Part shown: positions 1-52,600 of the stretch, piece by piece | Layout of the letters: every line of letters begins with the position of its first letter | Position numbering within the stretch: position 1 is the stretch's first letter | DNA from: Tribonema minus | Taxonomy: Eukaryota > Sar > Xanthophyceae > Tribonematales > Tribonemataceae | Direction: 5' to 3' | Length of the DNA: 64,000 bases | Assembly (NCBI GenBank): GCA_017506865.1 | Contig: JAFCMP010000088.1 | Span: forward strand, 186,001-250,000 | Notes under the pieces: model-generated | What the model saw: the letters and a program-made list of their open reading frames with translations, nothing else | Database searches by the model: none | What the model was told of the DNA's origin: nothing | Program-made: the position numbers and the translations under genes

Positions 1-2109
1 TCCGCGCGCTTCTGCCTCGCGCACAAGGCGCCCGACATGGTCGACCTTGTGAACCGCCGCTGCGAGGCGGACGGCTGCAACCGGCGCCCCGTCTTTGCGC
101 CGCCGGGGCAGAAGGCGCGCATGTGCTCGGACCACCGCGGCCCGAATCATGTAGATGTCATTAATCATCGATGTTTGTGGGCGCAGTGCAGCATGGTCGC
201 GTGCTACGGCCTGCCGGGCGAGCGCGCGAGCAGCTGCGCCGCGCACAAGACGGAGGGCATGCAGAAGAAGAAGGGGCGCGCGGGCGGCGCGCCGACGCTG
301 CCGCTCATGGCCGGCTCCACGCCGCCGCCGCTGCTGCCGCCGTCGATGCTGCAGCACCACCACTTTGCGGCGCATGGCGGCGGCGGAGGCGGCGGCGGCG
401 GCGGCGACGGCGGCTTCGCCATGGGCCTGCAAGATAGCGGCCTGGGGTTGGCGCGCGGCGTCGACGACCGACCTGCGCCGTGGCACCATCCGTTTGGCGG
501 CGGCGGCGGCGCGGCGCAGGCGGGGCGCAAGCGCGGCATGGATGAGGCGGGCATCGGCCTGCACCACGCGCAGCAGCAGATGGGGGGGCACATGTTTGGT
601 GGCGGCGGAGGCAGCGGCGGCGATGGCGGTCAGGCGGCGATGGCGCCGATGCCGTACCTCCTCCAGCAGCAGCAGCAGCAGCGGTTGCAGTCCGCCCAGT
701 ACATGCAGCAGCAGCAGATGCAGCCCCAGCAGCAGGGTTCAATGGGCTCGTTCATGCAGCAGCAGCAGCAGGGGCTGGGGGGCGCGCCGCAGCACAACGC
801 GCTGGCGCACCAGGCGCCGCAGCTGCTGCAGCAGCAGCAGCAGATGTCCATGTACGGCGGCAGCATGCGGCACTCGCCGCAGCCATCGCCACACCAGCAG
901 CGGCAGCAGCAGCCATCTGTGCTGCACAGCAGCTTCGCCGGCAGCGCCGGCGGCAGCATGCCCTCGCTCGTCGGCCCCGCGGCGCCCGACCCGCAGCACG
1001 CGCGCTACTGGCCGCACCCGTCCAGCGCTTCTCCGGCGGCGGCCAACGAGTTTGGGTTTGTGCCGCGAGGGGCGCGCGAGGACTCGCACGGCACGCGCAG
1101 CCCCTACCAGTACGCGGACTACACGTGGGGTCCATCCGGCGGCGCTGCCAACATGTACGGCCTGCCGGCTGGCTCGTCGAACGAGGGCTTGGCTGGGTAC
1201 TTTGGCAGCGGCGGCGCCGGCGGCGCAGCGGCGTACGCTCATCCCTCGCTGCTCAAGGAGCCGGGAGGGGGGTTGCGGGGGTTCGAACTGCAGCAGCGCG
1301 GCGTGCAGCACCAGGCGGCGTCGCTGCTGCCACAGCAGCAGCAGCAGCAGCAGCAGCGCATGAGCCAGACGGCGGCGCCGCCGATGCAGCACCTGCTGCA
1401 GCACCAGCACCACTACCAGCAGCAGCAGCAGCAGAACCTGCAGCAGCAGAAGGCGCTGCAGCGCGCGCACACGCTGCAGATGCAGGAGGCGCAGAGCAAC
1501 CTGCAGCGGCACCAGCAGCTGATGGCCGGCGCGCAGCTGTACGGCGGGCCCTCCTCCGTGGCGATGGCGTCGGCGGCAGCGCACTACGGCGGCGCGGGCG
1601 GCGGCAGCGGCGGCGAATCCAGCAACGGCGCTGGCGCGGCGCCGGCAAGAGCGGATGCGCACGGCGGCGGCGCAGCAGCGCAGCACGCGGTGCTGGGCAG
1701 CGGCCCGCCGCGCAGCGCCTCCGCGCCGCCGACGTGCCACCTGGATGAGGGGTTCGCGCGGCTGCTCGCGACAGCCGCTGCCGCCGGCGCGGCGCCGCAG
1801 CCGCAGGCGCAGGCGCCCCCCGCGGCGGCCAGCAACGGCGACGCGACGCGGGCGGCGGCGGTGATGGTCACGGCGGGCGGTGGCGTGAGGGGCGGGGGGG
1901 GGGGGCAGATGGCGCAGTACCATAGAGCGGGCGCCGCGCACTACGGCGGCAGCGTGCTGCTGAAGGAGCCGCTGTCGCCGGCGCCGCAGTCGTCGGTGCC
2001 GTCGATGACGTGCGGCGCGGACGCGGCGGAGGACGCGGCGGAGGCGGCGGCGGCGATGCTGCTGCGCAACGCGGCGCAGCAACGGGACAACACAGTGCCG
2101 TCCGGCTAG
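1..2109 (+). CDS. EsV-1-7 cysteine-rich repeat protein, 3' part (5' end outside window)
   Basis: The reading frame is open from base 1, so the gene starts upstream; 702 residues are visible. Residues 1-19 are the end of one EsV-1-7 repeat (C-x2-H then PDMVDLVNRRC). A full repeat follows with spacing C-x4-C-x15-C-x2-H (CEADGC ... CSDH), then another (CLWAQC ... CAAHKTEGM). The family is known from the Ectocarpus IMMEDIATE UPRIGHT developmental regulator, other stramenopiles, a few other algae, and the virus EsV-1 that names it; its molecular function is not established. After about residue 90 the protein is low complexity: long Gln, Gly, Ala and His runs encoded by CAG/GGC arrays, a composition often seen in transcription cofactors. 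The repeat assignment is firm. A nuclear or regulatory role is inference. The ATG at 37 lies within the repeat array and is not a credible start. Confidence 0.85.
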   Translation, partial: SARFCLAHKAPDMVDLVNRRCEADGCNRRPVFAPPGQKARMCSDHRGPNHVDVINHRCLWAQCSMVACYGLPGERASSCAAHKTEGMQKKKGRAGGAPTLPLMAGSTPPPLLPPSMLQHHHFAAHGGGGGGGGGGDGGFAMGLQDSGLGLARGVDDRPAPWHHPFGGGGGAAQAGRKRGMDEAGIGLHHAQQQMGGHMFGGGGGSGGDGGQAAMAPMPYLLQQQQQQRLQSAQYMQQQQMQPQQQGSMGSFMQQQQQGLGGAPQHNALAHQAPQLLQQQQQMSMYGGSMRHSPQPSPHQQRQQQPSVLHSSFAGSAGGSMPSLVGPAAPDPQHARYWPHPSSASPAAANEFGFVPRGAREDSHGTRSPYQYADYTWGPSGGAANMYGLPAGSSNEGLAGYFGSGGAGGAAAYAHPSLLKEPGGGLRGFELQQRGVQHQAASLLPQQQQQQQQRMSQTAAPPMQHLLQHQHHYQQQQQQNLQQQKALQRAHTLQMQEAQSNLQRHQQLMAGAQLYGGPSSVAMASAAAHYGGAGGGSGGESSNGAGAAPARADAHGGGAAAQHAVLGSGPPRSASAPPTCHLDEGFARLLATAAAAGAAPQPQAQAPPAAASNGDATRAAAVMVTAGGGVRGGGGGQMAQYHRAGAAHYGGSVLLKEPLSPAPQSSVPSMTCGADAAEDAAEAAAAMLLRNAAQQRDNTVPSG

Positions 2110-2635: not shown

Positions 2636-3059
2636 TGCACCACGTTGGCATATGGCTGTCTGCAGGTTGATGCCTGGTCTAACGCGATGTACACATTACA
2701 TTGCTAGCACTGTCACACTGGAAGTGTAATGCGCGCAGGTGATGTCAGAGACCTATGTAACCAACATGCATGCACTATGCATCATGTTCATTCATCACAA
2801 CATCCATGCACTATGCTCTCCCACCCCGTCCAATCTTATTAGCCAGTCCAATCTGCTACTTAGTGCAATTGAGCTCATAAAGCTCTAGCTCTGCAACCAA
2901 CACTGCACCAGACCGTTATGTGATGCTGCGCATGGTATCCAGCAGCTGTGAGAACCTCAGATCTTCAGGGCCCCGCGCCAATTGCATAGCGGCACCACGG
3001 TCGTGAGTTGAGGTAGCGGCGCTGTGAGTTCAACACCACTTCAGGCCTGGGCGCGCGAG
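2110..3059. other. Intergenic region between EsV-1-7 gene and USP gene
   Basis: This spacer separates two genes on the plus strand. It begins with a G-rich stretch just after the stop, then turns AT-richer. It holds an inverted repeat at 2476-2497 (CGAGATAT arms, 6-base loop) followed by a T-run, a possible 3'-end hairpin, and a GCT/CTG microsatellite at 2588-2634. No convincing coding exon was seen. The last 200 bases presumably hold the USP promoter, but no definite element can be named. Confidence 0.6.
2588..2634. repeat. (GCT)n / (CTG)n trinucleotide microsatellite
   Basis: About 15 uninterrupted GCT units. It lies outside the coding sequence, downstream of a gene that itself carries many CAG runs. 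It is open on the minus strand as poly-Ala, but that reading frame has no other protein character. Confidence 0.95.
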
Positions 3060-4590
3060 ATGGCGCACACTGCTCGGGTGGTCGGCCTGCCCAATCTCGG
3101 AAACACATGCTTTCTGAACAGCGTCCTGCAGAGCCTGGCGTCACTGAGGCACTTCGTCAGCTATCTGGAGGGGATGCGTCCTACCGTAGGACACGCCAGC
3201 CGGGCCTCATTTTCTCGTACCCTGCTGCAATGCCTGAGCCAGCTGGCTGGGGGCGCTGCGGCTGCTCCGTCATCGACCTACCCCATCGCGAGGGAGGTGT
3301 ACGAGGGTCTGCTGAGGAAGGCACCCACGTTCCAGGGCAGGGACCAGCAAGATGCACAGGAGGCCTTCCACGCACTCGTGGACTTGGTGGACGAGGAAAG
3401 GATCCAGCTGAAAAATAGGCTGGGCTCGGCGTACGTGGTGCCGTTGAGATCGCGGCGAGATTTCCTGCGCATCCACCCCGCCCCCCCGTTTGCCAGTGGA
3501 GGCCTGGAAGCCCTGCTGAGGCCCGCAGCGGCGGTGCTGCCGGCGAGCTTCTTCGGCGCCCTGCCCATGCAGGGGACGCTCTGCTCCTCGCTGCGCTGCG
3601 TCGTCTGCAACACGTCCAAGCCGCTCACGGTCGCGCCGTTCATCGACATCAGCCTGCCGCTGCCGGAGGCCTACCAGCTCTACGGCGGCGGCGCCTCCGC
3701 CCACCACGCCAGCAGCAACGGCTTCGCCAACGGCAACGGCGTCGCCAATGGCAACGGCGCCGCCAACGGCAACGGTGCCGCCGCCGCGTGGCACCCGCTG
3801 TTCTCCGGCGCGGCGCTCGCGGGCGGCCGCCACGGCTACCTGTACCACCAGCAGCACTACCACGCGCACCACCGCGCGCCCGCGATCGTCATGCACAGCG
3901 ACGGCTCCGTGGACCTCGAGGCGTGCCTGCGCGCGTTCATGCAGGAGGAGGAGGTGGAGGGCGTCGAGTGCGACGCGTGCACGCACAGGCGGCGCCGCGA
4001 GCGCCGCATACAGGAGCGCCTGCGCCGCGGCGTGCCGGCGGAGTACGCGAGCGCGCAGCCGCCGGCGGCGGCGGGCGGCGCGGAGGCAGCGGCGGCGCTG
4101 GCGGCATTCGACGAGGACGGCGAGGGGCCGGAGCTGCGCACCTTTGTCAAGCGCCTGTCGCTCGCGCGCCTGCCGCGCGTCCTGTGCCTGCACTTCTGCC
4201 GGCGGCACTACTCGCCGTCGCGCGAGCGCATGGTCAAGCTGTCGCAGCGCGTGCGCTTCCCGCTGGAGCTCACACGCGACGGCCTCGCGCGCTGCGGCGC
4301 CGTGGCGGACGCCGCCGCCGCCGCCGCCTCCTGCACCGCGGCGGCAGCGGCGGCGGACCTCGGCGGCAGCATGAGCGGCAGCAAGAGCGCCGCTGCCGAC
4401 AGCGACCTGTACCTGCTGCGCGCCGTCATCGTGCACCAGGGGTCCGCGGACGCGGGGCACTACGTCGCGTACCGGCGCGTCGGGCGCGGCGCGGCGTGGG
4501 TGTGCGCGAGCGACGCGGCGGTGCGCGCGGCGACGGAGGAGGAGGTGTGCGCGTGCGAGGCGTACATGCTCTTCTACGAGGCCACCAGCG

Positions 4591-4622
<32 letters not shown>

Positions 4623-4682
4623 TGCGCGAAGGCGGGCGGCGGTGCGGGGGACGCGGAGGAGGGCCTGGAGGCGGTCGCGTAA
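3060..4682 (+). CDS. Ubiquitin-specific protease (USP/UBP, peptidase family C19)
   Basis: A cysteine deubiquitinase that removes ubiquitin from substrates. It reads as one exon of 540 residues from the ATG at 3060; the open frame extends a little upstream but with no earlier ATG. The Cys box is GLPNLGNTCFLNS near residues 9-21 with catalytic C17, followed by the family QQDAQEAFHAL segment. The His box DAGHYVAYRR contains H467, and a downstream SDAAV segment is where the third catalytic residue normally lies. CxxC pairs at CVVC and CDAC form the usual USP zinc site. Between them is a species-specific insert of Asn-Gly repeats (3718-3782) and a His-rich stretch. The C-terminus is a Gly/Ser tail. 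The catalytic core is compact, like small USPs; the subfamily cannot be fixed by eye. Confidence 0.92.
3718..3782 (+). repeat. 18-bp coding minisatellite (ANGNG repeats) in USP
   Basis: Three near-identical 18-base units encode FANGNGV/ANGNGA-type blocks in the insert between the two zinc-binding CxxC pairs of the USP. The repeat number is likely to vary between strains. Confidence 0.85.
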
Positions 4683-20123: not shown

Positions 20124-22309
20124 TCACAGGCCGCCCATGGCGCCGTTGGCCTGCGGCACGGGGAAGACGTAGCGCGCGTCGATGCGGCGGTTGGGCGTCT
20201 TGCCCGTCTCGTCCTCGTCGTCCTCAAACTGGACGAGCGCCTCCGTCATGCCGCGCTTCAGGGACTTGGCCATCTTGCCCCTGGCGGCGCGCACACGCAC
20301 ACAGGGAGAGAGGGAGGCAGCGGCGGCGGCGGTGCGGGGGGGGCAAGATGTTAAGCGCTGCTTTGGCAGCTGATGGCGCGAATGGCAGGTGACACGGCAT
20401 AGTGGGGGCTGCGGCCTTGACGTCATTGCGGGTGCCGCGGTGTTGGCGTTTGGTGCAAGCGACATGGCGCAAGGTGGTGTGTGCCCTATGCATTGCACAC
20501 CGACCTCAACTCCAAACCCCCTCAACTCTGCGCCGCCGGTGTGGAAGACGCTTGCGCGCACAGGTCCTCAGCCAGTGTGCCTGCAACTGCGTGGCGCAGT
20601 CGTCATTGCAGGCAACAACAATCATGTGGCGACTTCAACAAAGCTGTACTCTCGCTGTTGGGAGCCAACCGCCAGAAGCATTCCGCAGGGCGCCTAGAGA
20701 GGGCGGGCCTCTGGGAGGCCGCATGCCAGGCCTCGCCAGCCCGCACCGTCCGTCGAACAGTGGGTGCGCGCAAGAGTACACACACATTGCCGCCTCAGCA
20801 GCACTCACTTGTAGAAGCTCGTGGTGTCGGGGAACATGGCCAGCACAGCGCCGCCCTTGTGCAAGCCCTCCACATTGTCCGTCAGCCGCAGGACAAAGCA
20901 CGCGTCCACCATGAACTTGCGGCTGCAACGACACGCACAATGAGACCCCACGAGTGAACAGGGCGGCGATGGCGTCAAAGCGCTGTAAAGGTTGCGTTGC
21001 TTCTTAACTGCGGCAAGACCAGTAGGATGCCCGATGCAACGTTGTTGTGAACACTTTGCTAGGCGATGGTGTAGAGATCAGCGGGTGAAATGCTGCAAAG
21101 TGCGGCCTATGGATGGTTCAGCCGCTTGCAGGCGCGTGGCTCTGCGGCAACTCACCCAGAGCGTTCTGCGATCCCCTGCTGCACGAGTAGATCAATGCCG
21201 CTGTGCGTCATATGCAGTGACCAGCACTGCGCATGAAACTCATGGAAGCTCATGAACACGACACCGCCATCGCAATGCCTTCGTGCATGTACAAGAGTCG
21301 TGTGCAACTCGTTGTCATTTATGATAAATTCCATCAGAACCATTGAGTAACTTCAAACGCACGCATGGTGGTGAGCGCGGCGTGCACTTGGAGACGCACT
21401 GCCGTGCAGAGATGATATAATTATTGACGCATCGACAGCGACGCGATCATGCGGCCACAGACAGATCGGCGCGTGCAGTGGCCTACGTACTCAGTAATTT
21501 GAAGCATGTTGAAGAAGACAGCATGGTAAAGACACCCTATTTTTTGACGACTTTTCATGACAATGTGGACGCATTTCGGACAACAGCTAGACGCCAGAAC
21601 TATCCCACAGAAGAGAAGAGCATACGCGCCAGTGACAATGCGTGGTGAGTGTTCAGGCAGCAGCAAGATCTCGATGGTGGCGTGAAAGATACCTGGTGTC
21701 ATCCTCGTCGGCCACCTCGTATTTGTCCAGATTGGCGTAGTACCGCTGAACAGACGCCAGAATCCAGCTGCCATTATCATCATTCTGCAGCGGTGTGGAC
21801 AAATGCGAATGACGCCATCAGCAACCATGTCAAACAACTGCCATTTTTTGAAGGCAAAGCGAACCGCCTCCGTGGGTGCACACAACAGCAAGTGAATTTG
21901 TACAGATGGCCAAACGGCTTACCGGATTCGTCCTCGCCGCCACCTTCTCCCCTGGCTTCATAGCGGACATGCCAGCGGATGTGGATTGCGGTGAGCGCGC
22001 CGCCTTGGAGCTGGACTGCGTAGCATCGCCCCCGGGCCTAGCTCGTTTTCGGAACTTTACTGCCCCACCGAGCTCCCGGCTGGCGAAACCAGTGCTGACG
22101 TGATCAGAGAACGCCTTCAGCACGTCCTCCTCGTCTATCTGCCAGGTCCTGAAGTGCCGCGCGCATGCGGCTGCTAGAGCCTGCTTGCTGGCGGGCAACC
22201 CAACGCTCGTGTGTATGTTGTGGTGGCCGCAGTAGTTGAGCAGGCTCCTTTCGGTGAGCTTGTTGAAGTCTATGCCGCTAGGCGTGTGGCCTCCCGGGGT
22301 GTTGGACAT
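20124..22309 (-). CDS. SAP30-type Sin3-binding motif fused to SGF29 tandem Tudor domain
   Basis: Four exons (22309-21923, 21784-21693, 20922-20809, 20280-20124) keep phase throughout and give 249 residues from the ATG at 22309. Residues 13-71 (DFNKLTERSLLNY ... ACARHF ... DEEDVLKAF) match the Sin3-binding region of SAP30, a Sin3/HDAC subunit. After a short basic linker, residues 119-245 match the SGF29 tandem Tudor of SAGA: PGEKVAAR, GSWILA, DKYEVADEDD, VLAMFPDTTSFYKG, ALVQFEDDED and a C-terminal VFPVP. The aromatic positions that hold H3K4me3 in human SGF29 appear kept, one as Phe instead of Tyr. Both domains begin in the same exon, so the fusion does not depend on splicing. Expected to act in the nucleus; a link between H3K4me reading and Sin3 recruitment is inference. 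Confidence 0.85.
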
Positions 22310-30632: not shown

Positions 30633-33600
30633 CTACTGCTGAGCATCACCGCTGCCGCCCGGCTGCTGCTGCTGCTGCAGCGCGCGCCGCAGGTCGCGCT
30701 CCGTCATCAGCGCGCCGTTCTCCGCGCACCACGCAATGTACGCGCGCCAGTGCGCGTCGTGCGACAGCGTCGCAGGGTCGCCGACGATGACGACGCCGCG
30801 CCGCGCGCGCGTGATGGCGACGTTGAGGCGGCGCCAGTCGCTCAGGAACCCCACGGCGCCGCAGCGGTTGCTGCGCACCGCCGACAGCACGATGACCTCC
30901 TTCTCGCGCCCCTGGTAGCCGTCCACGGAGCGCACCTCGATGAGCTCCCACGGCTGCGGCGCGCGCGGCGGCGCCGCAGTGCGCTTTCTGCCGCCGCCGC
31001 GCTCTGCACCGGCGCCGCCGCCGCCGCCGTCGCCGCCGCCACGACTGCTCTGCGCAGCAGCAGCAGCGGGCTGGTCGGCGTCGCTGTGCGCTACTGCTGC
31101 AGCGGCGGTGGCGGCGCCATCCGGCGCGGCCGGCGCCGCTCTGGTGCAGCCGAGGCCCGCGCGCAGCGCGTCCGTCAGCACGCGCACCTGCGCGGCGTAC
31201 GGCGTGATGACGCCGACGTCCTGCGGCGCGACGTCGCCGCCGCCGCCGCCGCCGCGCAGCAGCGCGCGGACGACCGCGCACGCTGCCGCCGCCTCGCGCG
31301 CGTTGCACCATGACGTCGCGCCGCCGCCGCCGTCCTCCGCGGTGGCGCCGCCGCTGCCACGCGCCTCGAGGCCGCGCGCGCCGTCGCTGTCGTCGCGCAC
31401 CGCGACGAACGCCACCGGCACCGCCGCGTTGGGCCACGGGAAGCCGCGTGGCGTGGGGCGGTCCACGGCGCGCGGCGCGCTCGCAAGGCGGCCGCCATAG
31501 AAGCGCGCGCTGCGAACAATAAGGCAAATAGTTGTTAAAAAAAATAAAATAGGCCGCTGGTGGTGGTGGCAAGATGATTGTGGGAGCAGCGGCTGCTGCC
31601 GCCCACGGCCAGGCCAGCCCCGGCAGGGAGAACCAGAACTCGTCGCAGGAGGCGGGCGACCGGCGCACCGCAGTCAAGAGGAAGCAGGACACTATTTCGT
31701 GCCTGACTGACTCGGACACGGACCAGGGTCTCTAGACGATGGGGTTCTGTTCAGTGCATCACCCAGTCTGCTGCTTTCAAGTGAGTCTGTGCAGGCCCGA
31801 AACAGCTGTGAAGACATGCAGCCATTTCATCAACAAGCCAGCCTATTTGTGCTTTCGTGCCACGTTTGCCGCTCACTTGCAAATTTTGTCCATCACAGCA
31901 TTCATGCGTGTATAGTGCATTGGCATTGGTCTATCACAGCATTCAAGCACGTGTACGTAATGCGTTACAAGTTGGATGCATGCACACGTGATACGTACCC
32001 CGGGAACGCAGCGATGCGCGGGTGCATGCGGTACTGGCGCGCGAGCACGACGGGCGCGACGCCCGCGAGCATGAGCCGCGCAAAGAGCGACGTCGCGAGG
32101 CCGCCCGCCGCGGCGCCGCGCGAGAGGATCGTCGGCGGCAGCTGGTTCTGGTCGCCTACCAGGATGAGCTGCTCGCAGCCACGCGTGAGCGGGACGAGGC
32201 TCGCGGGCTCCGTGGCCTGGGTTTGGGGGGGGGAGCGGGGGGGGGGGGGGCACGGGTTGTGTGAGGGGGGTCAGACACGCGGCGGCGCGAATTGCATATA
32301 AAACGCATGTCTGCACTGTCATGTACGCTGGCAGTCGCGCGCGCAGAAAGGCATGGCCGCCGGTGCCGTGCTTAGCAGCAGGCATGCTACGGCGCGCGCC
32401 ACGATGCGTGTGGCGGGGGGATACTGCAAGCGCAGACTCTGGCGTGGCTCATGGCACGCGCCGCAGGACCTCTCGCGCGTGAGTCGCCGTTGCTGCGGAA
32501 GCTCTCTTTGAGAGGCCTACAAAAGAAAGAAATATGTGTTATATCATAAAAACAAACACGTACCTGCGTGGCCTCGTCGATGAGCACCGTGGAGAACGTG
32601 AGCCCCGCGGCGGCCCCCGTCTCCTCGCACTGCTCCGAGGCTGCCGCGAGCTGCTCGCCGCCCGCGCCGATGCAACTGCAGACGACCACGTCCGCGGCCT
32701 CGAGAATCGCGCGCACGGCACGCCGCTCAGCTGCCTCCAGCTCGCCCTGCAGCGCGCGCAGGTCGCGACCAGCCTGCGTGCTCGACTTGCCGGGCTTGCC
32801 GTCTGCGAGCGTCGCGGTCTTGCGGCTCACCTGCGAACAGGGTGGACGGGGGGCGGGGTGCGTGTGTGGCGGGGGCGGGCGGGAGGGGGGGTTCAGATGG
32901 AGCTGCAATCAGGCAAAGCTTAACTGCTGGCGCGACCATCTATTGTGTTCTGGCGGTGTCAAAAGCGTATGCATTCTAGCGGTGCGGCCCTGCCAAAGTG
33001 GGCTGCGTGTCTCATAGTCGGGCGTGCATCCACGGGGCACGCGCGACTGTTGCCGGCTCGCGGCGCCCCTGCGCCGCACGCAATTGATGTGCCGGGAGGG
33101 GCGCAGATGCAGTGAGCCAGTCGCTCAGCAAGTCTTCATAATCGGCACCGGCATACAAGGGTGCTGTTGGGGACGCGCATGCTCTGAATCATGTGCACGT
33201 GTCTCCTGCAGACTGCGCAACTCGTGAAGCGATGACGTCGCAGAACTCTGCACAACGTGTTGGGTTGGGGGGCAGTGCGCCTGAAGGGGGGCAGGGCAAA
33301 TCTCCACACGTGGAGGCGTGCGTGGCGCCGACCCAAGCAAGAGCGTCACAGCCATTGCGCATTCGTCGCCGCGAACTGCGCGGCGCATCACATCAAGCCT
33401 TGCGTGACATGCGCGAGACTGCGCACCCCGTCGCCGCAGCACCGCGCACGCGTGCTACGGTGCATGCCTGCTTCGCGTGCGCCCTGCGCGCCGCAACCTC
33501 TCACCATGTCGCGGACGGCCAGCAGCTCCGGGTGGTTCTCCAGCTGCGCATCCTGCGGGGCAGGGGACGCGAGACGGCGCGACGCAACGCAACGATCAGC

Positions 33601-41880: not shown

Positions 41881-44800
41881 TCAGTACCACTGCGGCGGCG
41901 GCGCCATCCCGGCGGGCGGCAGGCGCCCGCCCACGCCCAGAAGGGGGCGACCATCGGGGCCCAGCGGCACGTGCGGCATCGGCGGATAATTCGGCAAGTA
42001 CCCCTGCTGGTGTGGCGGCGGCGGCGGCGGCGGGTGCACCAGCAGCGAGTTCTGCCACTGGTGCGGCGGCGGCGGCGGCGGCAGCGGCGGCGGCGCGGGC
42101 TGCTGCGGCAGTGGCGGCTGGTACATGGACGCCATCGCCCGAGGGGGCATCCGCGTCGCCGCCACTGCAGCCGCAGCTGCCGCCGCAGCCGCCGCCGCTG
42201 CTGCCGCCCCGCCTGCCGCCGCCACGGTGCTGCCGAGCAGTGGCGGCAGCGCCGCGGGCGGCAGCGGCGGCGCAGCGGGCGCCATGAACGGCGACGGCGG
42301 CAGCGGCGGCTGTCTTGCCGGGAGGCCGCTGGGCGCGCGCGCGGGCGTCGCCGTCGGCGTCGGCAGCGCCGGCGGCGGCGGCGGCGCCGTCAGCACGCCC
42401 CACCACCACGGCGGCTTCTCCGTCTCGCCGTCAGTCATCTCGTCGAGGAGGATGGCAACGCGCGGGTCGGGCATCGGCGCGCCGTCCGCGCCGTACGCGA
42501 CAAAGTCGATGGGCGGCCTGTCGAGCAGGTCGAGCAGCGAGCCGAGCCACGGCACCTTCTTGAGCTGCGGCTGCGCAAAGAGGCCCATGCGCTGCGCCTT
42601 CGCGGCGCGCAGCTTGCCGGACGCCTGCACGCTGCGCGCGAAGCCGGCCTCCCACGCCTCCTGCTCCGCGGCGCGCGCCGCGTCGGACAGCTCGCTGTCG
42701 CCGCCGCCGCCGCCGCCGCCGTGCCGCTGCTGCCGCGGCGAGGGCATCCTCGGCAGCAGCACGCCTCCGCCGCCTGTCTGCACGGGCTTCATTACCGCCT
42801 GCGCATGCGCGTCGTGCAGCGACGGCGTGCGGCGGCTCATCGCGCTGCCGCCGCCGCCGCCGCTGGGGGAAGGCGCGACGCTGTGCGGCGTCGACAGCGC
42901 GGCCGCGGCGGCAGCGGGCGTGTACGGCAGCGCGCGCGCGCGGACGCCGCCGCTGACCTGCTGCACGCCGGGCTGCCGCGCCTGCCAAGGCTGCGCGTCA
43001 ACGCGCGCGCTGCTGTCGCCGGTGCCGCCGCCGCTGCCGCCACCGCTGTCGCAGTCGGCCCTGCTCTCCGACCAACCACATGTGGACCTCGCGCGTGGGC
43101 GGGGATCGCCGCGGCCCCACGAGTCGCGGCGGTCTACCAGGTCCTGCTGCTGCGAGGTCCTATGCTGCCATTCGCCGTGACGCCGCTGATCAGCGGTCGT
43201 GGCACTGCCGCCGCCGCCGCCGCCGCCGCCGTCCGCGCCGCTGCGACTGCCCTCGCCGCACCTGCCACGGCTGCTGCCGTTGCGGCTGCCGTCGCCGCCG
43301 CTGCCATGACCGCTTTCGCCGCCGCCGTGGCCGCCGCCGGCGCCTCTCGCATCGCCGCCGTTGGTCAGCGGCGCAGCGTCCGCGGCGGCGCGCTGCTTCT
43401 TGCGCAGCTTGACAGGCGGCTGTACAGCGTCGGCACTGGCTGTGCGGTCGCCCGCAGCAGCGGCAGCGCTGCCGATTGCACCTTTTGCACTCGGCGCTGC
43501 TGCGGCGGCTCCCGCATCGCGCGCGCGCTTCAGGCGCCGCTTGGGGCCGCTCTGTACAACGCCGCCGGTGCCGCGCCCCCCCTTCTCCTCCGCGACGCTG
43601 CCGCCGCGCGCGCGCTCCGGCGACGCGCCACCGGGCGAGCCGTCTGCAGTCGCCAGGCGCGCCGCCAGCGCCGCCTGCGCGGTGCTCATGAAGTCAGAGC
43701 CGTTCAGCGCTGGTGCAACATTTGGTTGCTCCGCGTCACCTGCCGCAGAGCTGACCGCCGTGCCCGCCCCCCCTTCTGCCGCTGCCGCCGCCACCGCATC
43801 TCCCTCCTTCACGGCGGCGGCGGCGGCAGCGCGCTGCTCAGCTGCCGGTGGCGCGTGCTGCACCGCGCCCGCTGCCGCCGCGCCACCTGCTGGAGCCCCG
43901 TCCGCCTCCGCCGCAGGCGCCGCGCCGGCGGCAGCAGCCCCCTTCCGCTGGCCCTTCCTGCCCTTCCTGGCTGGCGCGCCATTGGGGTGCGACGGCTCTG
44001 CCGGCTGCGGCTCCTGCGCCAGTGATGCCGATGCAGCCGCGCGTGCACGTTTCTTGCCGATCTTGGCGCGCGCCGGCGGCGGCGCGGCGGCGGCGACGGT
44101 GGCAGCGCCCGCTGGTGGCTTTGTTGCTGGCCCCTTCGCCATTTGCGGTTTGCCCTCTGGTGCTGCTGGTGCCGTATTCGACGGCTGCGCTGACAGAGCA
44201 GCGGCCGCCGCACCAGGCGTCGCCGCAGCGTCCGCGGCGACGTCAGGCGCAGCTGTCACAGCTGCGCTCACAGGCGCTGCTGCTGTAGCTGCTGCCAGCG
44301 ATGCCGTCTCCGCCAAAGCGGTAGTGGCAGCGGCAGCTGTTGTATCGTGCGATGGATGAGCGACGGTGGGCGCCGCTGCTGCGCCATTGTGTGATGGCGT
44401 TGAAGTTGGTGGCGCTGCTTCTAGTGAGGGCTGCTGTGCTGCTGTCGATTCTGACAGCGCTGCTGATGACGCGTGCACTTCCGGTGGCGCTCGCGGCACA
44501 GCGCCCGTTATTGCTGCGCCCAGCGGCCCTGCTGCTGCGGCCGCCGGAGCGCTGAGCGCCTCCGCTGCTGCTGCTGCTGCTGTCGCCGGTGCTGGTGCCG
44601 GTTCAACTGCTGCTGATGTCGCGACAGCAACAGAAGGGCTCGCCAACGCCGCGGGGAGCAACGCATCTGTCGCACCTGATGGACCTGCTGGGGCCGCTTG
44701 CCGGTGCTGCGGTGGTACCGCAGCTGCCGACACGTCAGGCTGCGCAGTGATGCGGGCGGCCGGCACTGCCGCCGCCGCCGCTTCCACCAGCGCCACAGGC

Positions 44801-47364
44801 TCAGACACTGCTTCCGCCGCCGCTGCTGCCTCCGCATCATTCGCTGCTGCCGCCACTGCCGCTGCCGCCACTGCCGCGGCCTCCACGGCAGACGGCTCGC
44901 TCGCCGCCGACTTCGCCAACGCCATGGCTGCTGCCGCTGGTGGAGCGGCTTGCTGTAAGGCCTCTGTTGCTGCAGCAGCTGCCCCCGCCTCTGGAAGCCC
45001 AGGCGCTGCTGCACCCTTGATTTGGTGCAAGGATGCCAGCCCCGTGCCCTCCGCCGCCTTCTCGGGCGCCGGCGCCGCCACCGCCGCTGCGGCAGCTGGC
45101 GGCGACGCGCCCTCCACCGCTGCTGCCGGAGCTTTAGTGTCCAGCGCTGCAACTGCAGCATCAGCAGCAATCGCCGCCGCCACAGGTGCTGACTGTGCTA
45201 CCGGCAAGCGCGATGATGCCGCAGCAGCAGCCCCCTCCTCCGGCGCTGCAGCTGCGCCTGTCCGCGCCAACGCTTCCACTGCGCGTGGCATCGAAATCGC
45301 TGATGCCTCCTCCAGCTCCGCGCCTGCCGAAGCAGCACCTGCGACTGGCGAATCGTTTTGCAGCGGCAGCAGCTGCACCGAGGCGCCCGGGGATGGCGCG
45401 CTGGCTACTGGACCGCCGCCAGCTGGCACCTCCACCCCTGCTGCCGCCGGTGCTGCAACAGCAGTAGTAGGCTGCGCTGAGGTGGAACCAGCCCCTCCAT
45501 CGACATCCATGGGTGCTGTTGCTGCTGGCGGTGCTGCTGCTGCTGGCGGTGCTGCAGCGGGCTGCACCGGGGTCGGCAATTGTGCCGCCACTCCTGTTGT
45601 AGGCACAACAACTGACGCCGCTCCGGTTGCGGCTTTGCTGGACGAAGGTGCCGGTGTTGCATCAACTGCTGCAGCGTGCACTGCCGCCGGTGTCGTTGCT
45701 ACTACTGCTGCGGGAGCTGGAGCTGTTGGTGGAGGCGCTGATGCTGTTGGGCTGACTGCTGCTGCAGGGGCTGGTGCTGATGCCGCGGGGGGCGCGGTGG
45801 CCGCGCGTTCAGCAGTTGCTGCTGCGCCTGCTGCCGTTGCTGTTGAATCGGCGGCGGCGGCGGCGGCAGCAGGTCTTGCAGACACTGCCAGCGGCACGTC
45901 GGCATCCTCCATATCTACCTCCATGGGTGCCACGGTAGTCGACGCAGCACCAGCAGCGCCTGCGACAGCTGGCGCTTGGCCACTACTGCCCTGCGGCATC
46001 GCTGTCGACGTCTCAGCAGGCTGCGCTGGCAGCTCTGCAGCAGGCAGTGGCAGCGTCTCCCCCGCCTTCGCAGTCGCAGCCGCTTGAGGCACGGCCCCCT
46101 CCGCAGTTTGCGGGGCAGCTGCCGCTGCTGCGGGAGCGCCATCACCTTTCGGCGACGCACTGGGTGCAGCAGCAGCGCCGGCCCCCCCACCCGCCGCCCC
46201 GGCACTGGGCTTCCTGCCCTTGCCCGCCGCCGGCTCCTTGCGTGGCCTCCCCCTCCCCTTCTTCGCCGGCGCCGGCTCCTCTGCTGCTGCCGCCGCTGCC
46301 GCAGCGCTGCCAGCGCCATGCGCAGCGGCATCGCGCGTAGCTGTCGCCGCCGCCGCGCCGCCTGCCGCGCCCGTTGCCTGCGCAGCGCCCTTGCGCGCCT
46401 CCTCCGCGAAGTGACGCAGCAGCTGCCGCTCAGTCATGTGCTGCAGGTGCGCATCAGGTGCCGTGGCGTCCGCGGCGGCAGCGGCTGCCGGCGCCCGTGA
46501 AGCCGCTTTGGCCTTGGGTGCCGCGCGATTTTTCGCCGCTGCCGCCGCTGCGCCGCCCCTGCCCCTCCCCCTGCCCCGCCCTCGCCCCCGGTTCGTCGCC
46601 GGCGCCGCCGCCGCAGCGCGCTCTCCAGCTGCAGTGTCAGCAGCAGCCTGCGCGGCGGACGCAGCGGCGCTGGCTGCGCCATCTGCAGCTGCCGCCGACG
46701 CATCCGCAGCAGCAGTTTCTTCAGCCGCCGCCTTGCTGGTTTTTGATCCATCAGCGGCTGGCTTGCCAGGCTCGGTGGTTTTAGCAACAGCTTCAGCAGC
46801 ATTGTCCGCTTTGGTGTCTGCCGGCGCGGCAGCGGCGGCGTCGGTATCATCAGCGCTTAGCGCTCTAGCACTTCTGGATTTTTTTAGCGCTGCTGGCCTG
46901 CCTGCAGCCGCGCCGCCCCTGCCGCTCTTGCTGCTCGCTGACAGAGACCTCTTGAGGCCCCTCCTCGGTGCATTGCCGACTGCAGCGTCCTCTGTTTCCT
47001 GCGATGCAGCAGCGGCTGCTGCTGCAGCTGCGCCGCTGTCCGGGGCTGCTCGTTGCTGCTCCTCTAGCTGCTTCTGCTGCTCCGCCAGCAGTTTCATCTG
47101 CTGCCTGACAGACATGACAGGTGTTACCCCTGCACCAGGAGTAGAGGGCTTACGACCTCGCCGAGCTTTGCTGACCGCCGGCGCCGCAATGGTCAAGGCA
47201 GCATTATTTGACGCCATGGCGCTCGCTGTTGTCTCGCTTGACTGCTCCGCTTCAAGGGTGGGATCTGTACCTCGCTCAACCTCGGCGCTCACCTCGCCAG
47301 CTTTCGGTTGCTGTGTCTTGACATCACCTGGAAAAATGTTACTTTCCGGACCAGCATCAGCCAT
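41881..47364 (-). CDS. Very large alanine-rich AT-hook protein
   Basis: A single uninterrupted frame of 1,827 residues from the ATG at 47364 (MADAGPESNIFPGD). I recognise motifs, not a family. Near the N-terminus are an AT-hook-like ARRGRKPSTPG and a Gln-rich coiled segment (KLLAEQQKQLEEQQR), then an RG repeat (NRGRGRGRGRGRGG) and a canonical AT-hook, KKGRGRPRKEP (near residues 367-378, with GRKPSAG just after). About 900 residues of Ala/Pro/Val/Ser low complexity follow, then Gly/Arg/Ser-rich sequence. The only globular-looking part is near the C-terminus (about 41.9-42.7 kb), with EAWEAGFARSVQASGKLRAA, KKVPWLGSLLDLLDRPPIDF, RVAILLDEMTDGE and PPWWWG. AT-hooks bind the minor groove of AT-rich DNA, so a chromatin role is likely. 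The shared 170-bp upstream gap faces the RuvX gene. Confidence 0.75.
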   Translation of the reverse strand: MADAGPESNIFPGDVKTQQPKAGEVSAEVERGTDPTLEAEQSSETTASAMASNNAALTIAAPAVSKARRGRKPSTPGAGVTPVMSVRQQMKLLAEQQKQLEEQQRAAPDSGAAAAAAAAASQETEDAAVGNAPRRGLKRSLSASSKSGRGGAAAGRPAALKKSRSARALSADDTDAAAAAPADTKADNAAEAVAKTTEPGKPAADGSKTSKAAAEETAAADASAAAADGAASAAASAAQAAADTAAGERAAAAAPATNRGRGRGRGRGRGGAAAAAAKNRAAPKAKAASRAPAAAAAADATAPDAHLQHMTERQLLRHFAEEARKGAAQATGAAGGAAAATATRDAAAHGAGSAAAAAAAAEEPAPAKKGRGRPRKEPAAGKGRKPSAGAAGGGAGAAAAPSASPKGDGAPAAAAAAPQTAEGAVPQAAATAKAGETLPLPAAELPAQPAETSTAMPQGSSGQAPAVAGAAGAASTTVAPMEVDMEDADVPLAVSARPAAAAAAADSTATAAGAAATAERAATAPPAASAPAPAAAVSPTASAPPPTAPAPAAVVATTPAAVHAAAVDATPAPSSSKAATGAASVVVPTTGVAAQLPTPVQPAAAPPAAAAPPAATAPMDVDGGAGSTSAQPTTAVAAPAAAGVEVPAGGGPVASAPSPGASVQLLPLQNDSPVAGAASAGAELEEASAISMPRAVEALARTGAAAAPEEGAAAAASSRLPVAQSAPVAAAIAADAAVAALDTKAPAAAVEGASPPAAAAAVAAPAPEKAAEGTGLASLHQIKGAAAPGLPEAGAAAAATEALQQAAPPAAAAMALAKSAASEPSAVEAAAVAAAAVAAAANDAEAAAAAEAVSEPVALVEAAAAAVPAARITAQPDVSAAAVPPQHRQAAPAGPSGATDALLPAALASPSVAVATSAAVEPAPAPATAAAAAAEALSAPAAAAAGPLGAAITGAVPRAPPEVHASSAALSESTAAQQPSLEAAPPTSTPSHNGAAAAPTVAHPSHDTTAAAATTALAETASLAAATAAAPVSAAVTAAPDVAADAAATPGAAAAALSAQPSNTAPAAPEGKPQMAKGPATKPPAGAATVAAAAPPPARAKIGKKRARAAASASLAQEPQPAEPSHPNGAPARKGRKGQRKGAAAAGAAPAAEADGAPAGGAAAAGAVQHAPPAAEQRAAAAAAVKEGDAVAAAAAEGGAGTAVSSAAGDAEQPNVAPALNGSDFMSTAQAALAARLATADGSPGGASPERARGGSVAEEKGGRGTGGVVQSGPKRRLKRARDAGAAAAAPSAKGAIGSAAAAAGDRTASADAVQPPVKLRKKQRAAADAAPLTNGGDARGAGGGHGGGESGHGSGGDGSRNGSSRGRCGEGSRSGADGGGGGGGGSATTADQRRHGEWQHRTSQQQDLVDRRDSWGRGDPRPRARSTCGWSESRADCDSGGGSGGGTGDSSARVDAQPWQARQPGVQQVSGGVRARALPYTPAAAAAALSTPHSVAPSPSGGGGGSAMSRRTPSLHDAHAQAVMKPVQTGGGGVLLPRMPSPRQQRHGGGGGGGDSELSDAARAAEQEAWEAGFARSVQASGKLRAAKAQRMGLFAQPQLKKVPWLGSLLDLLDRPPIDFVAYGADGAPMPDPRVAILLDEMTDGETEKPPWWWGVLTAPPPPPALPTPTATPARAPSGLPARQPPLPPSPFMAPAAPPLPPAALPPLLGSTVAAAGGAAAAAAAAAAAAAAVAATRMPPRAMASMYQPPLPQQPAPPPLPPPPPPHQWQNSLLVHPPPPPPPHQQGYLPNYPPMPHVPLGPDGRPLLGVGGRLPPAGMAPPPQWY

Positions 47365-47534
47365 TATGCCGCCCCACCGCGCCCCTCCCCTGAGCGGCCC
47401 TCCGAGGGACGCCGCCACTTGTGTGCTTTCTATTACTTTCAGCCAGCAACTGCAACTTTCGGCGAGGGATGTCACCGGAGCGTTCAGGAAGAAGGCACGG
47501 GCGGCAGAGCGCGAGAGGTGGGCGCGCATTGATC
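47365..47534. promoter_or_regulatory. Divergent promoter between AT-hook and RuvX genes
   Basis: Only 170 bp separates the two divergent ATGs, so both 5' UTRs and core promoters must lie here or overlap coding sequence. No named element is evident. Confidence 0.55.
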
Positions 47535-48617: not shown

Positions 48618-49697
48618 TGCAACCTGTCTTTACAAATTTGATGTTTGTGTGTGGTCATGTCTGTACGCATTGCGGTCGTATGGTCAATGCACTTGCCTAT
48701 GTGCACCATTGTGAACAGAATTGCCTGCTCACACTTCCAGGGTCACATTCGAGCTGCTGCCATTCAGAAAAGTCCTGAGTTGAAGAGCAGGCTGTACTCT
48801 TTGTGCTTTTGAGAAACTGCGTGTCGGATGCCAAGCTTGATGCTCCATTCACGTATGTGACGAATGTGTGCGCTGAGTGTTGCATTTGCACATGATGGTT
48901 TCGTCTTGGTGAAACTGCTTGGGCCATTACGAAGAGCATGAGGGGCTGTCGGTGTGATAGGACAACCTCCGCCTTTTTCATTATAAGTGCTGAAGGAAAC
49001 TCTGCTTGACATTCGGAATACGGAGAAGCGTGCGTACTCCGCTGCGCAGAACATGCAATTCAGGCAGTGCAGATTGGACACCGAACACGGCCAATGAAAT
49101 GCTGCGCCAGCAATTGTGATTTAAGGTGGCATGCTCAGCACAAGCGAGCAACTTCAAGTTGTGGTCCTCAACAGCCACCTTCACAGTGCAAACATTATCC
49201 CTGGTGAATGTTTGATTCACTTATGGACTGCGAGGGGCCAATGCAATGATGCGTAATGCAGATCAAGAACATGCATGGTTGCATCAGCGAAAACAGGATA
49301 TGTCAGCAGCAGGATGACGAGTGGATGCTGAACTGATTGATGTCATTTCAACCAGTCAAAAGGTCACCACATTCATGAGTGCTGCGCCTGTGTCCCCTGC
49401 TGGCAGTGGGTCGTGGAGCTGTGTCATTCCAGGAGGTGTTGGCATAAAACGTGTAGACAACACCACGCACCCAACATATCATGGTAGGGTGCAGCAGCTA
49501 CATGTGTGATGTGCTGTCAATCGTCCGGCTAATATAAATCGGCACCACTAAATGCTGTGCAGGCTGCGCCAGAGCCCTCTTTGTGCGCGTCTTCCAACCC
49601 CCCCCCGTACCGCTGTCAACTTGGGACAGCGCAAATCTAAGCATCTATCCCCACAGGCAAAGGCACCATCCTTCAAAGCAATCTGCCGTGTCCACTA
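48618..49697. other. Convergent intergenic region
   Basis: 1.1 kb between the 3' ends of the RuvX and CRY-DASH genes. It is AT-rich compared with its neighbours. No open frame of note is present; presumed 3' UTRs and spacer. Confidence 0.6.
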
Positions 49698-52600
49698 CTA
49701 CCCTCTCCGGCGCCCCCCTCTCCCCCCCCGCCTCTTGCCGCCGCCCAGATCCCCGTGCCGCTGGCCCACCTCGGAAGCGCTGAAGGGCAGCGTGCGCTGC
49801 GGCGCGGGGTAGTCGCCGCCGGGGCCGACCCTGCAGCCGACCTCCGCCTGCAGCGCGCGCGGCATCGCGTGCGGCGCGTGCACATGCTGCCGCGGGACGC
49901 GTGCGAGCTCCGGGCACCAGTGGCGCACGTAGGCGCCGTCGGGGTCGTACTGGTGCGCCTGCAGCGTGTGGGTGTGGAGGTTAGGGGGGGGGGGTGAGGG
50001 GGAAGCTTGCGCAAAGTGGGCTTCTTGCCCGTTGAGCAAGTTGGGGGGGGAGGGGGGGGGGGGGGGCAGGGGGGGGGGGGGAGGTGAGTGAAGCGTTTGC
50101 AGAGTGGGCCTTCTGCCAGTCGAGCGAGCTGGGTTGCAACAGAGGGGCGAGCTGCTCGACGCGCGGCTCGCAAAGTGGGACGCAAACGCAGGCGCGATTG
50201 GTGCACGCGTGATGTGGCGCAGCAGTCAGCGCTGGTGCACGGTGAGCACTGAGGCGAAGGCATTGACGACACTTCAGGGCATGCAGCAGTACTGGGTGCA
50301 GACTGGGTATCTCTGTGTGACACAGGCGGGCAGGCGGCGCCGGCCAACAGTGACGCTGCTGCAGGGCAGTGTCGGGCGCGGCGGCGGCACCAACCCGGCA
50401 GCAAGGCCCTCATGGGCGAGTATGCATCGATGCGTGCAGGCGCGCGCGCACGCACACGCGCGCACGCAGCCCGCGCGGCGCACTGCACACGATCGCAGCA
50501 ATGGCACACCTGCTTGGGTATGTTGAAGCGGTTGAGGCGCCCGCCCTGCAGCCCCGCGAGCGCGTGCCAGTTGCCCCAATTGCTGGCGACGTCGTAGTCC
50601 AGCAGCAGGCTCTCAAAGTGGTCCGCGCCGAGGCGCCAGTCGAGCCCGAGGTCGTGCACGAGGTAGCTCGCCGCGTTCTGGCGGCCGCGGTTGGACATGA
50701 AGCCCGTCGCAGCGATCTCGCGCATGTTGGCGTCCACGAGGGGGCTGCCGGTGCGCCCCTCCTTCCACGCGGCGAGAGCGCTGAAGTCCTTCTGCGCACG
50801 CGCACGCGCGCAGGGCGGTTGCGATTGCAGCTTTCAGAACCACCACTTCTTGAATGTGCATGAGACTGCATACCGTGATAACTGGTTCAGATGTATGTGC
50901 ACGCCATGCGGGGGGAAGGAGCGGCGCGGGGGTGTGGGGTGTGTGGGGGGGGGGGGGGGGGGGGGGGGAACTGTGCAGTGGGTGATGCCAGCGACCTCAG
51001 TCACTGGCCTGCGGCAGCTGCATGTGATGCACAGGCGCATGGTCAGAGGCCATGACATCCCATGACATCACAGCTTAGGCGCCATTTGGCAAGGCGTCGG
51101 CGCGCTGACTCGGCGCTCACGACCACTTCTGTGGCCATGACATCACAACTTAGGCGCCATTCGGCATGGCGTCAGCGCGCTGACTTGGCGCGCTTGCGTA
51201 CTGCGAATTGGGTCTGCTCAGTGCCGCAAAACCATCATGCTGCAACGCTTGCGGCGGCGCCAGGAACGCTTGGACCTGTGGCTTCTGTTGTTCAGTGGTG
51301 GCGGCGCCGGACTATGGGCGCACACAGCGACAGCTGTTGATGATCAACTGCAGTGCACTGGGCATGCGCACGTACGAACACAAGTCTACATGCTGCGCCG
51401 TTATAATCGCGGCGGTCGACTCTGACCCATGTGCTGGGAGCCAATGCCATGCGCCTTGCGCTCTGGCGCCGCACTGCGTGTGCACGCAGAGTACACAGCA
51501 CAAATGATTATTGTACCCGCTTGTGTTCGTACAGTGCACCCCAATACAGCACGGACACTGCAGATGCAACAGCGTGCACTCTACGGTGACTTTCCTGAGG
51601 CAGGGCTGCGCACTCCGCTGCAACAAAAGCGACGGGCGCTGCGCTTCCGCATCTCAGGAAACAATGTGCCGCACAACCATCAGGCAGACGCGGTGCTCAG
51701 GGTGTGCGTACCTGCCACTTGTGCCCCTCGCGCGGGTGCACGCCGTCGGGGTAGAAGAGGCGGGCGCCATGCTTGGCGACGTAGAACTTGAAGTAGTCTC
51801 TCCACCTGCATCAGGGTTGACCAGCGAGCATCGAGCCAAGAAACCGTTGCGACGCGGTCAGCCGCACTGGACGCTGGAGTTTTGCAAGTGTACTTGACTT
51901 GATGTGCATGCATCTAAACAGCGCAGCAGATGAGAAGCCGACTGTGAACGGCGCTGTGCGCCCCCCACATCTTGGACTGCGCTGCTGCACGCCGGGGCGT
52001 GCTTTGCAAATCTGCTGCGCAGTGCCGACAGGCTGGCAGCAGCGCTGTCAGCATGAATCTAGCACTGAAACAGCGTGAGACGCGGCGCCGGTCTGCCGAG
52101 CGCTGACTCACTCTCTCCCTCTCTCAGTCACTGACTCACTCACTCACTACTCACTCGCGCACTCACATGAGCTCAAACGTCATCCAGTACGTGCTCTTGT
52201 TGGCGACGCGCTCCGCCTCGTAGCGCTTGCACGCCGCGTGCACGGCGCGCGCGCTCACGCACCCCGCCGCGAGCCACGGCGAGAACTTGCTCGAGTAGTC
52301 GGCGCCGAGCATGCCGTTGCGCGTGTCAAAGTACGTCGCCAGCGCGTCGGACTCGAGGGTGTAGTGGTTGAGGCGTGCCATCGCGGCGATTTCGCCGCCC
52401 CGAAACGGCAACACCCCCTTGGGGTCCCCCTCGCCGGTCTCCCCCTCCGCGAAGCCGAGATCCTGGGGAGGGGGGGGGGGGGGGGGGGGCTGAGGCGATG
52501 GCTTCGCGTCTTCAGACATCGAAGGCAGGTGCAAGGCGCACTCCTGCTTACGCCAAGCTGTAACGAGAGTGCTGAGGTAGCGAGGCTGGTGTGTGATGCA

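Follow-up and report, generated by a model that had tools for sequence, protein, structure and literature searches.

What would a protein do that carries a Sin3-binding domain at one end and a histone reader of an acetyltransferase complex at the other? SAP30 and ING proteins are subunits of Sin3/HDAC complexes, and SGF29 is joined to SAGA by its N-terminal coiled coil. The question is raised by a gene in a 64,000-nucleotide stretch of the Tribonema minus genome (contig JAFCMP010000088.1, positions 186,001 to 250,000; this whole stretch is called the window), in which a first-pass annotation had recognized a SAP30-type Sin3-binding motif fused to an SGF29 Tudor reader. That annotation offered two roles for the product: bringing a deacetylase complex to H3K4-methylated chromatin, or bridging the two opposing complexes. 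Our analysis suggests that it is a SAP30-type Sin3/HDAC subunit that carries a tandem-Tudor reader of H3K4me2/3, a reading that we regard as probable.

The gene lies on the minus strand of the window (22309-20124) and consists of four exons. Exon 1 (22309-21923) is a 387-nt open frame with donor gtaagc. It encodes residues 1-129, which comprise the SAP30-type Sin3-binding domain (residues 21-68, 22106..22249), then a linker and the beginning of the Tudor (residues 120-129, 21923..21952), the SGF29_Tudor match opening at residue 120 with position 2 of the model. Exon 2 (21784-21693; acceptor ctgcag, donor gtatct; 92 nt, in phase) encodes the first Tudor barrel with the aspartates that align with D194 and D196 of human SGF29. 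Exon 3 (20922-20809; acceptor ttgcag, donor gtgagt; 114 nt, in phase) enters the second Tudor with LAMFPDTTSFY, whose cage positions correspond to Y238, replaced by F, and to Y245. Exon 4 (20280-20124; acceptor cgccag; 157 nt, TGA stop) completes it with VQFEDDEDE, where the cage residues align with F264 and D266. Together the exons form a frame of 750 nt, stop codon included, that encodes 249 amino acids; all three introns are GT-AG. The four exons stand at the coordinates given by the first-pass annotation, and exon 1 holds both the SAP30 domain and the opening residues of the Tudor. Since these two parts lie within one uninterrupted exon, their join is independent of any predicted intron.

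Elsewhere in the window, Pfam matches were found to the EsV-1-7 cysteine-rich motif, which is known from brown algae (1-2106, plus strand, 3.6e-21), to a ubiquitin hydrolase UCH (3012-4679, plus strand), to AAA_12 (30636-31673, minus strand) and to the FAD-binding domain of DNA photolyase (49676-50833, minus strand). An open frame of 1883 codons on the minus strand (41884-47532) has no Pfam match; long frames on the opposite strand overlap it, the G+C content is high, and it is possibly an effect of composition and not a gene. In the wider assembly, fragments of the plastid genes psaA and psaB occur at 11 places on 10 contigs (for example C168:558775-558942 and C490:626304-626456), some of them with stops, and are probably plastid DNA in the nucleus. 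Among solved chains, two psaA fragments come closest to that of the kelp Macrocystis pyrifera (9ygv; PMC13219633) and to 9m4f. One fragment scores 103.8 and 103.7 bits against these two, compared with 94.0 for a diatom (8zeh) and 85.7 for Emiliania (9jj8); the other scores 87.5 and 88.5 bits, with the diatom chain 6ly5 close behind at 87.0. These affinities suit an ochrophyte, in line with the stramenopile origin implied by the first-pass annotation.

Both domain assignments of the first-pass annotation were upheld by profile searches. In hmmscan of the joined protein, SAP30_Sin3_bdg (PF13867) matched with 40.6 bits against a cut-off of 22.2 (E 3.2e-10, model positions 4-49 of 53), and SGF29_Tudor (PF07039) with 83 bits against 23.8 (E 2.6e-23, residues 120-240, model positions 2-132 of 132). 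Exon 1 alone gave SAP30_Sin3_bdg with E 1.5e-10, and a profile search of the organism's own genome scored this domain at 43 bits. When the protein was compared with PDB by phmmer, human SGF29 (3lx7) was found with 4.1e-11, and mammalian SAP30 (2ld7) with an E-value of only 1.5 from the single sequence. A profile built from the SAP30 domains of three paralogues reached 2ld7 with 2.2e-5 and yeast Sap30 weakly with 0.08. We rejected a chance likeness of the N-terminus to SAP30 because the Pfam scores are above the cut-off in three paralogues. The zf-SAP30 finger, which belongs to animal SAP30, was not reported by Pfam in the window protein at E <= 10. A low-confidence model of exon 1, predicted without an alignment (pLDDT 54.5), has helices at residues 20-29, 42-56 and 60-71 and no helix in the remainder beyond the SAP30 domain; Foldseek with this model returned no PDB match at E <= 0.001.

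Is the fusion peculiar to the window? We searched the 158-Mb, 554-contig assembly that contains it exon by exon, scoring the top candidates only, a procedure by which a lone SAP30 may have been missed. At E <= 1, SAP30_Sin3_bdg has three matches genome-wide, namely the window, C223 and C535, and each of the three has an SGF29 Tudor downstream on the same strand, within 5 kb at C223 and C535. By a Poisson estimate the chance of a downstream Tudor is 1.3e-4 per SAP30 match, or 2.1e-12 for all three; as the window had been picked beforehand, it should not be counted, and squaring the value per match for the other two gives a fairer figure of about 1.7e-8. The search with SGF29_Tudor gave eight matches at seven places, the window Tudor, split over four exons, not being among them. 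At the eight places including the window, SAP30 is found upstream in four and ING in one, and no partner domain was found for the other three (C547, C183 on its plus strand and C479:833 kb).

The C535 gene can be joined from eight in-phase GT-AG exons, a hand-picked chain, into a protein of 366 amino acids (SAP30 4.6e-10, Tudor 4.7e-23). That of C223 was scored as two separate parts, SAP30 with 1e-12 and Tudor with 3.7e-20. At least five intron positions are common to C535 and C223 and none of these occurs in the window gene, so we take the window copy for a presumably old paralogue. Window and C535 proteins are identical at 43% of residues over 246 aligned codons (dN 0.65, dS 1.47).

A local SAP30 profile run over 12 loci added one further SAP30 domain (1.8e-7) at the C479:801-kb locus, where its exon borders match and the first Tudor piece lies 2.5 kb further downstream; this locus very probably has the same layout. 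The second-Tudor exon of C479 is apparently present twice in tandem (L018:3222-3368 and 3450-3596), the second copy being out of frame with the nearest acceptor. On the minus strand of C183 (L050 229-788), a SAP30 domain that closely resembles the one at C479 was found with 4.8e-15, from a profile that already included the C479 copy; Tudor pieces on the same strand (L016) follow some 10 kb downstream. C183 is perhaps a fifth locus of this kind; the match of the genome-wide Tudor search there is on the strand opposite to the SAP30-like copy. The C183 stretch looks rearranged, with Tudor pieces on both strands. When the SAP30 part of C223 was searched against the whole genome at E <= 10, nine matches were obtained: C223 three times, C535 twice, the window (0.07), C183 (0.47), C125 and C423. 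The C479 copy was missed by this search. The SAP30-like matches at C125, with E-values of 1.2 and later 0.26, and at C423:214 kb, with 4.05, are weak, and we took them for noise. The layout that the first-pass annotation had described from a single locus is therefore real in the window but not a one-off, as C535 and C223 have it too, C479 very probably, C183 perhaps, and a gene with ING in place of SAP30 comes beside them.

Whether SAP30 and Tudor were joined once was not decided by a tree of the Tudor domains (seven rows, one C183 piece having been left out before building). C535, C223 and C479 group at 92/90, below the support bar, none of the four inner branches reaches it, and the four SAP30 rows cluster together in 24% of the bootstrap replicates.

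Sin3/HDAC complexes can read H3K4me3 via the PHD finger of an ING subunit, so ING was sought in the same genome. The ING N-terminal domain (PF12998) has one match genome-wide at E <= 0.1, at C34, where the first exon alone gave E 0.003 and 24.9 bits against a cut-off of 23.9; two of 14 control genomes also matched, below the cut-off. This match lies 2.2 kb upstream of a Tudor match. Six phase-0 GT-AG exons (L015:1207-4250) join into a protein of 280 amino acids, in which Pfam finds ING with 9.7e-15 (residues 4-117) and SGF29_Tudor with 1.2e-20 (to residue 272); the score of the whole gene makes the weak one-exon ING match firm. The N-terminus also matches ING4 (3.7e-9) and ING5 (4.7e-9) in PDB. 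ING proteins normally carry a PHD finger where the C34 protein has the SGF29 Tudor. Pfam found no PHD finger in this protein, its C-terminus being occupied by SGF29_Tudor. A degenerate ING-type PHD pattern had no match in the genome, a narrow test that leaves room for a diverged PHD elsewhere, and because introns hide most of the C34 ING from the search, another ING may have been missed. One intron of this gene and one of the SAP30-Tudor genes lie one codon apart, not at identical positions.

A putative partner for both kinds of protein is encoded at three Sin3-like loci, one at C423 and two at C19, with 12 PAH and five Sin3_corepress matches altogether. The open frames of C423 hold three PAH stretches and Sin3_corepress with 3.6e-20. 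The two loci at C19 (C19:451761-460017 and 476872-482378) lie on opposite strands with about 17 kb between them, and that on the plus strand has stops within the matches, for which introns or decay are possible.

What the Tudor half may read was approached by alignment with human SGF29. Human positions 194, 196, 238, 245, 264 and 266 are occupied in the window protein by D, D, F, Y, F and D, and likewise in C535 and C223; position 238 is Y in C547 and C34. We take D194 and D196 to be part of the pocket for alanine 1 (A1) of the H3 tail in human SGF29. Its K4me2/3 cage is reported to consist of Y238, Y245, F264 and D266, beside a negatively charged pocket for A1, and the Y238F variant to bind H3K4me2/3 as the wild type does, with Y245F showing about fourfold weaker binding (PMC4589357). 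As far as the alignment can tell, the Tudor pair of the window protein keeps the residues of the H3K4me2/3 cage and of the putative H3A1 pocket, with one tolerated change of Y to F. It is also conceivable that the Tudor half binds another methyl mark, a non-histone protein or a nucleic acid, in which case H3K4 methylation would not direct the complex. A sequence by itself does not prove which ligand is chosen. Position 265 differs in C535 and C223, and the C479 copy apparently lacks the cage aspartate, D266 being aligned with S, so that not every copy need read H3K4me. G-quadruplex binding has moreover been reported for the capped Tudor domain of a mammalian Sin3L/Rpd3L subunit, according to a title cited in PMC10224958. 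We nevertheless consider another ligand unlikely for the window protein, in which all four reported cage residues and both pocket aspartates are kept and the one change is of the kind that human SGF29 tolerates.

The Tudor half is clearly of the SGF29 type, and the protein could instead hold SAGA by this half and Sin3 by its SAP30 half, and so couple the two opposite reactions, acetylation and deacetylation, at shared promoters. This is the bridge of the first-pass annotation. However, SGF29 is anchored in SAGA by its N-terminal coiled coil, not by its Tudor, and in the window protein this part is a SAP30 domain. The occurrence of the same Tudor type on ING fits a portable reader. In addition, the genome has a separate SGF29-like Tudor gene at C547, whose N-terminus is seemingly helical by eye. 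No SAP30 or ING match was found in its partly joined protein, nor at E <= 0.01 in local profile scans; a single SAP30-like match of 0.037 is in a different frame. C547 is thus a candidate for the true SGF29 of this genome. The first-pass annotation had named a separate SGF29 with a normal coiled coil, combined with a window locus that is not expressed, as a finding that would refute its reading, and C547 supplies the first half of this to the extent that a Tudor protein with a seemingly helical N-terminus and neither SAP30 nor ING answers to it. A search for Ada3 gave nothing in the genome, but was uninformative as all 14 control genomes were silent too. Of the two roles first proposed, recruitment of the deacetylase fits the SAP30 domain and the complete Tudor with its kept residues, and nothing was found that favours a bridge over it; we judge the bridge quite improbable.

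The C223 and C535 copies also bear on whether these are functional genes. Their SAP30 parts differ with dN 0.49 and dS 2.35 over 95 codons and their Tudor parts with dN 0.51 and dS 1.24 over 134 codons; dS is near saturation, so that only the direction is meaningful, and it points to constraint on both parts. That two adjacent genes, a mis-assembly or a dead copy has been taken for one gene is therefore highly improbable, for although the exon chains are hand-picked and C183 has scattered pieces of both domains, there is no stop in the exon shared by SAP30 and the first Tudor residues, which in itself makes two separate genes very unlikely, and the same layout is found again on other contigs, so that we rejected a two-gene reading.

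We return to the window protein as a SAP30-type subunit with its own H3K4 reader. If the gene is expressed, the N-terminal SAP30 domain would, by homology, dock on PAH3 of Sin3, its third PAH domain. At the C-terminus, the kept residues suggest that the SGF29-type Tudor pair would grip the H3 tail, holding alanine 1 in a pocket and methylated lysine 4 in a cage. The deacetylase would thereby be placed on H3K4-methylated nucleosomes, a job done in yeast Rpd3L by the PHD fingers of Pho23/ING and Cti6. In that complex, Sap30 is reported to engage PAH3 of a single Sin3 copy through at least three helices, while the PHD fingers of Pho23, the ING subunit, and of Cti6 sit on flexible tethers and bind H3K4me3 (PMC10224958).

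The window protein is like SAP30, SAP30L and yeast Sap30 in its Sin3-binding domain, and unlike SAP30 in having a Tudor and no reported zf-SAP30. We know of no SAP30 protein with a Tudor domain. In a phylogenetic study of SAP30 that covers 62 species, a term search of the main text did not find the word Tudor (PMC2711940). With SGF29, a reader of SAGA and ATAC, the protein shares the complete tandem Tudor with its H3K4me residues, whereas it has the SAP30 domain at the place of the N-terminal coiled coil. We would describe it as a SAP30-type protein with a reader rather than as an SGF29 without its coiled coil, and would not file it as an SGF29 orthologue. Like the PHD readers ING1, ING2 and Pho23, it would bring a deacetylase onto H3K4me3, and the ING N-terminus of this genome bears the same Tudor type. 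It differs from them in that the reader is an SGF29-type Tudor and not a PHD finger, and stands on SAP30, not on ING. Tudor-like domains of Sin3 complexes also include those of ARID4. To our knowledge, the Tudors of mammalian Sin3 subunits belong to families other than SGF29_Tudor and none is joined to SAP30. A capped Tudor is known in a core subunit of mammalian Sin3L/Rpd3L, presumably SDS3. A Tudor fold within a Sin3 complex thus has precedent, the capped Tudor appearing in a title cited in PMC10224958.

As the one ING N-terminal domain found in the genome carries this type of Tudor too, the Sin3/HDAC machinery of the lineage may have come to read H3K4 commonly through SGF29-type Tudors. A wider proposal, to which we give an even chance, is that this machinery has swapped its H3K4 readers: Tudors would have replaced the PHD finger of ING and been added to SAP30, so that the reader of an acetyltransferase complex steers deacetylases to the same mark, and the paralogues with SAP30 and Tudor would possibly serve several Sin3 paralogues.

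In the open-licence literature searched by titles and the beginnings of abstracts, no description of a SAP30-SGF29 or ING-SGF29 fusion was found among the matches listed. In a review of stramenopile epigenetics, a term search found SAP30, Sin3, PHD, H3K4 and SAGA absent and Tudor only in a reference (PMC3145265). No relative with this layout was confirmed in viral contigs or in contigs of prokaryote genomes. Unremarked examples may well exist in the public protein sets of other algae. What seems new here is a probable Sin3/HDAC subunit with a putative methyl-H3K4 reader, built from parts not described together in the literature searched; Sin3/HDAC subunits with a reader of this mark are a kind already known.

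If the reading is true, the reader module of the Sin3/HDAC complex is replaceable. A coactivator-type reader would have been put on two corepressor subunits, SAP30 and ING, with the mark H3K4me2/3 seemingly unchanged. A protein with an SGF29 Tudor in an algal genome should accordingly not be taken automatically for a SAGA subunit. In a group with little chromatin biochemistry, these genes would make it possible to ask whether it is the reader or the complex carrying it that sets the answer to H3K4 methylation, acetylation or deacetylation.
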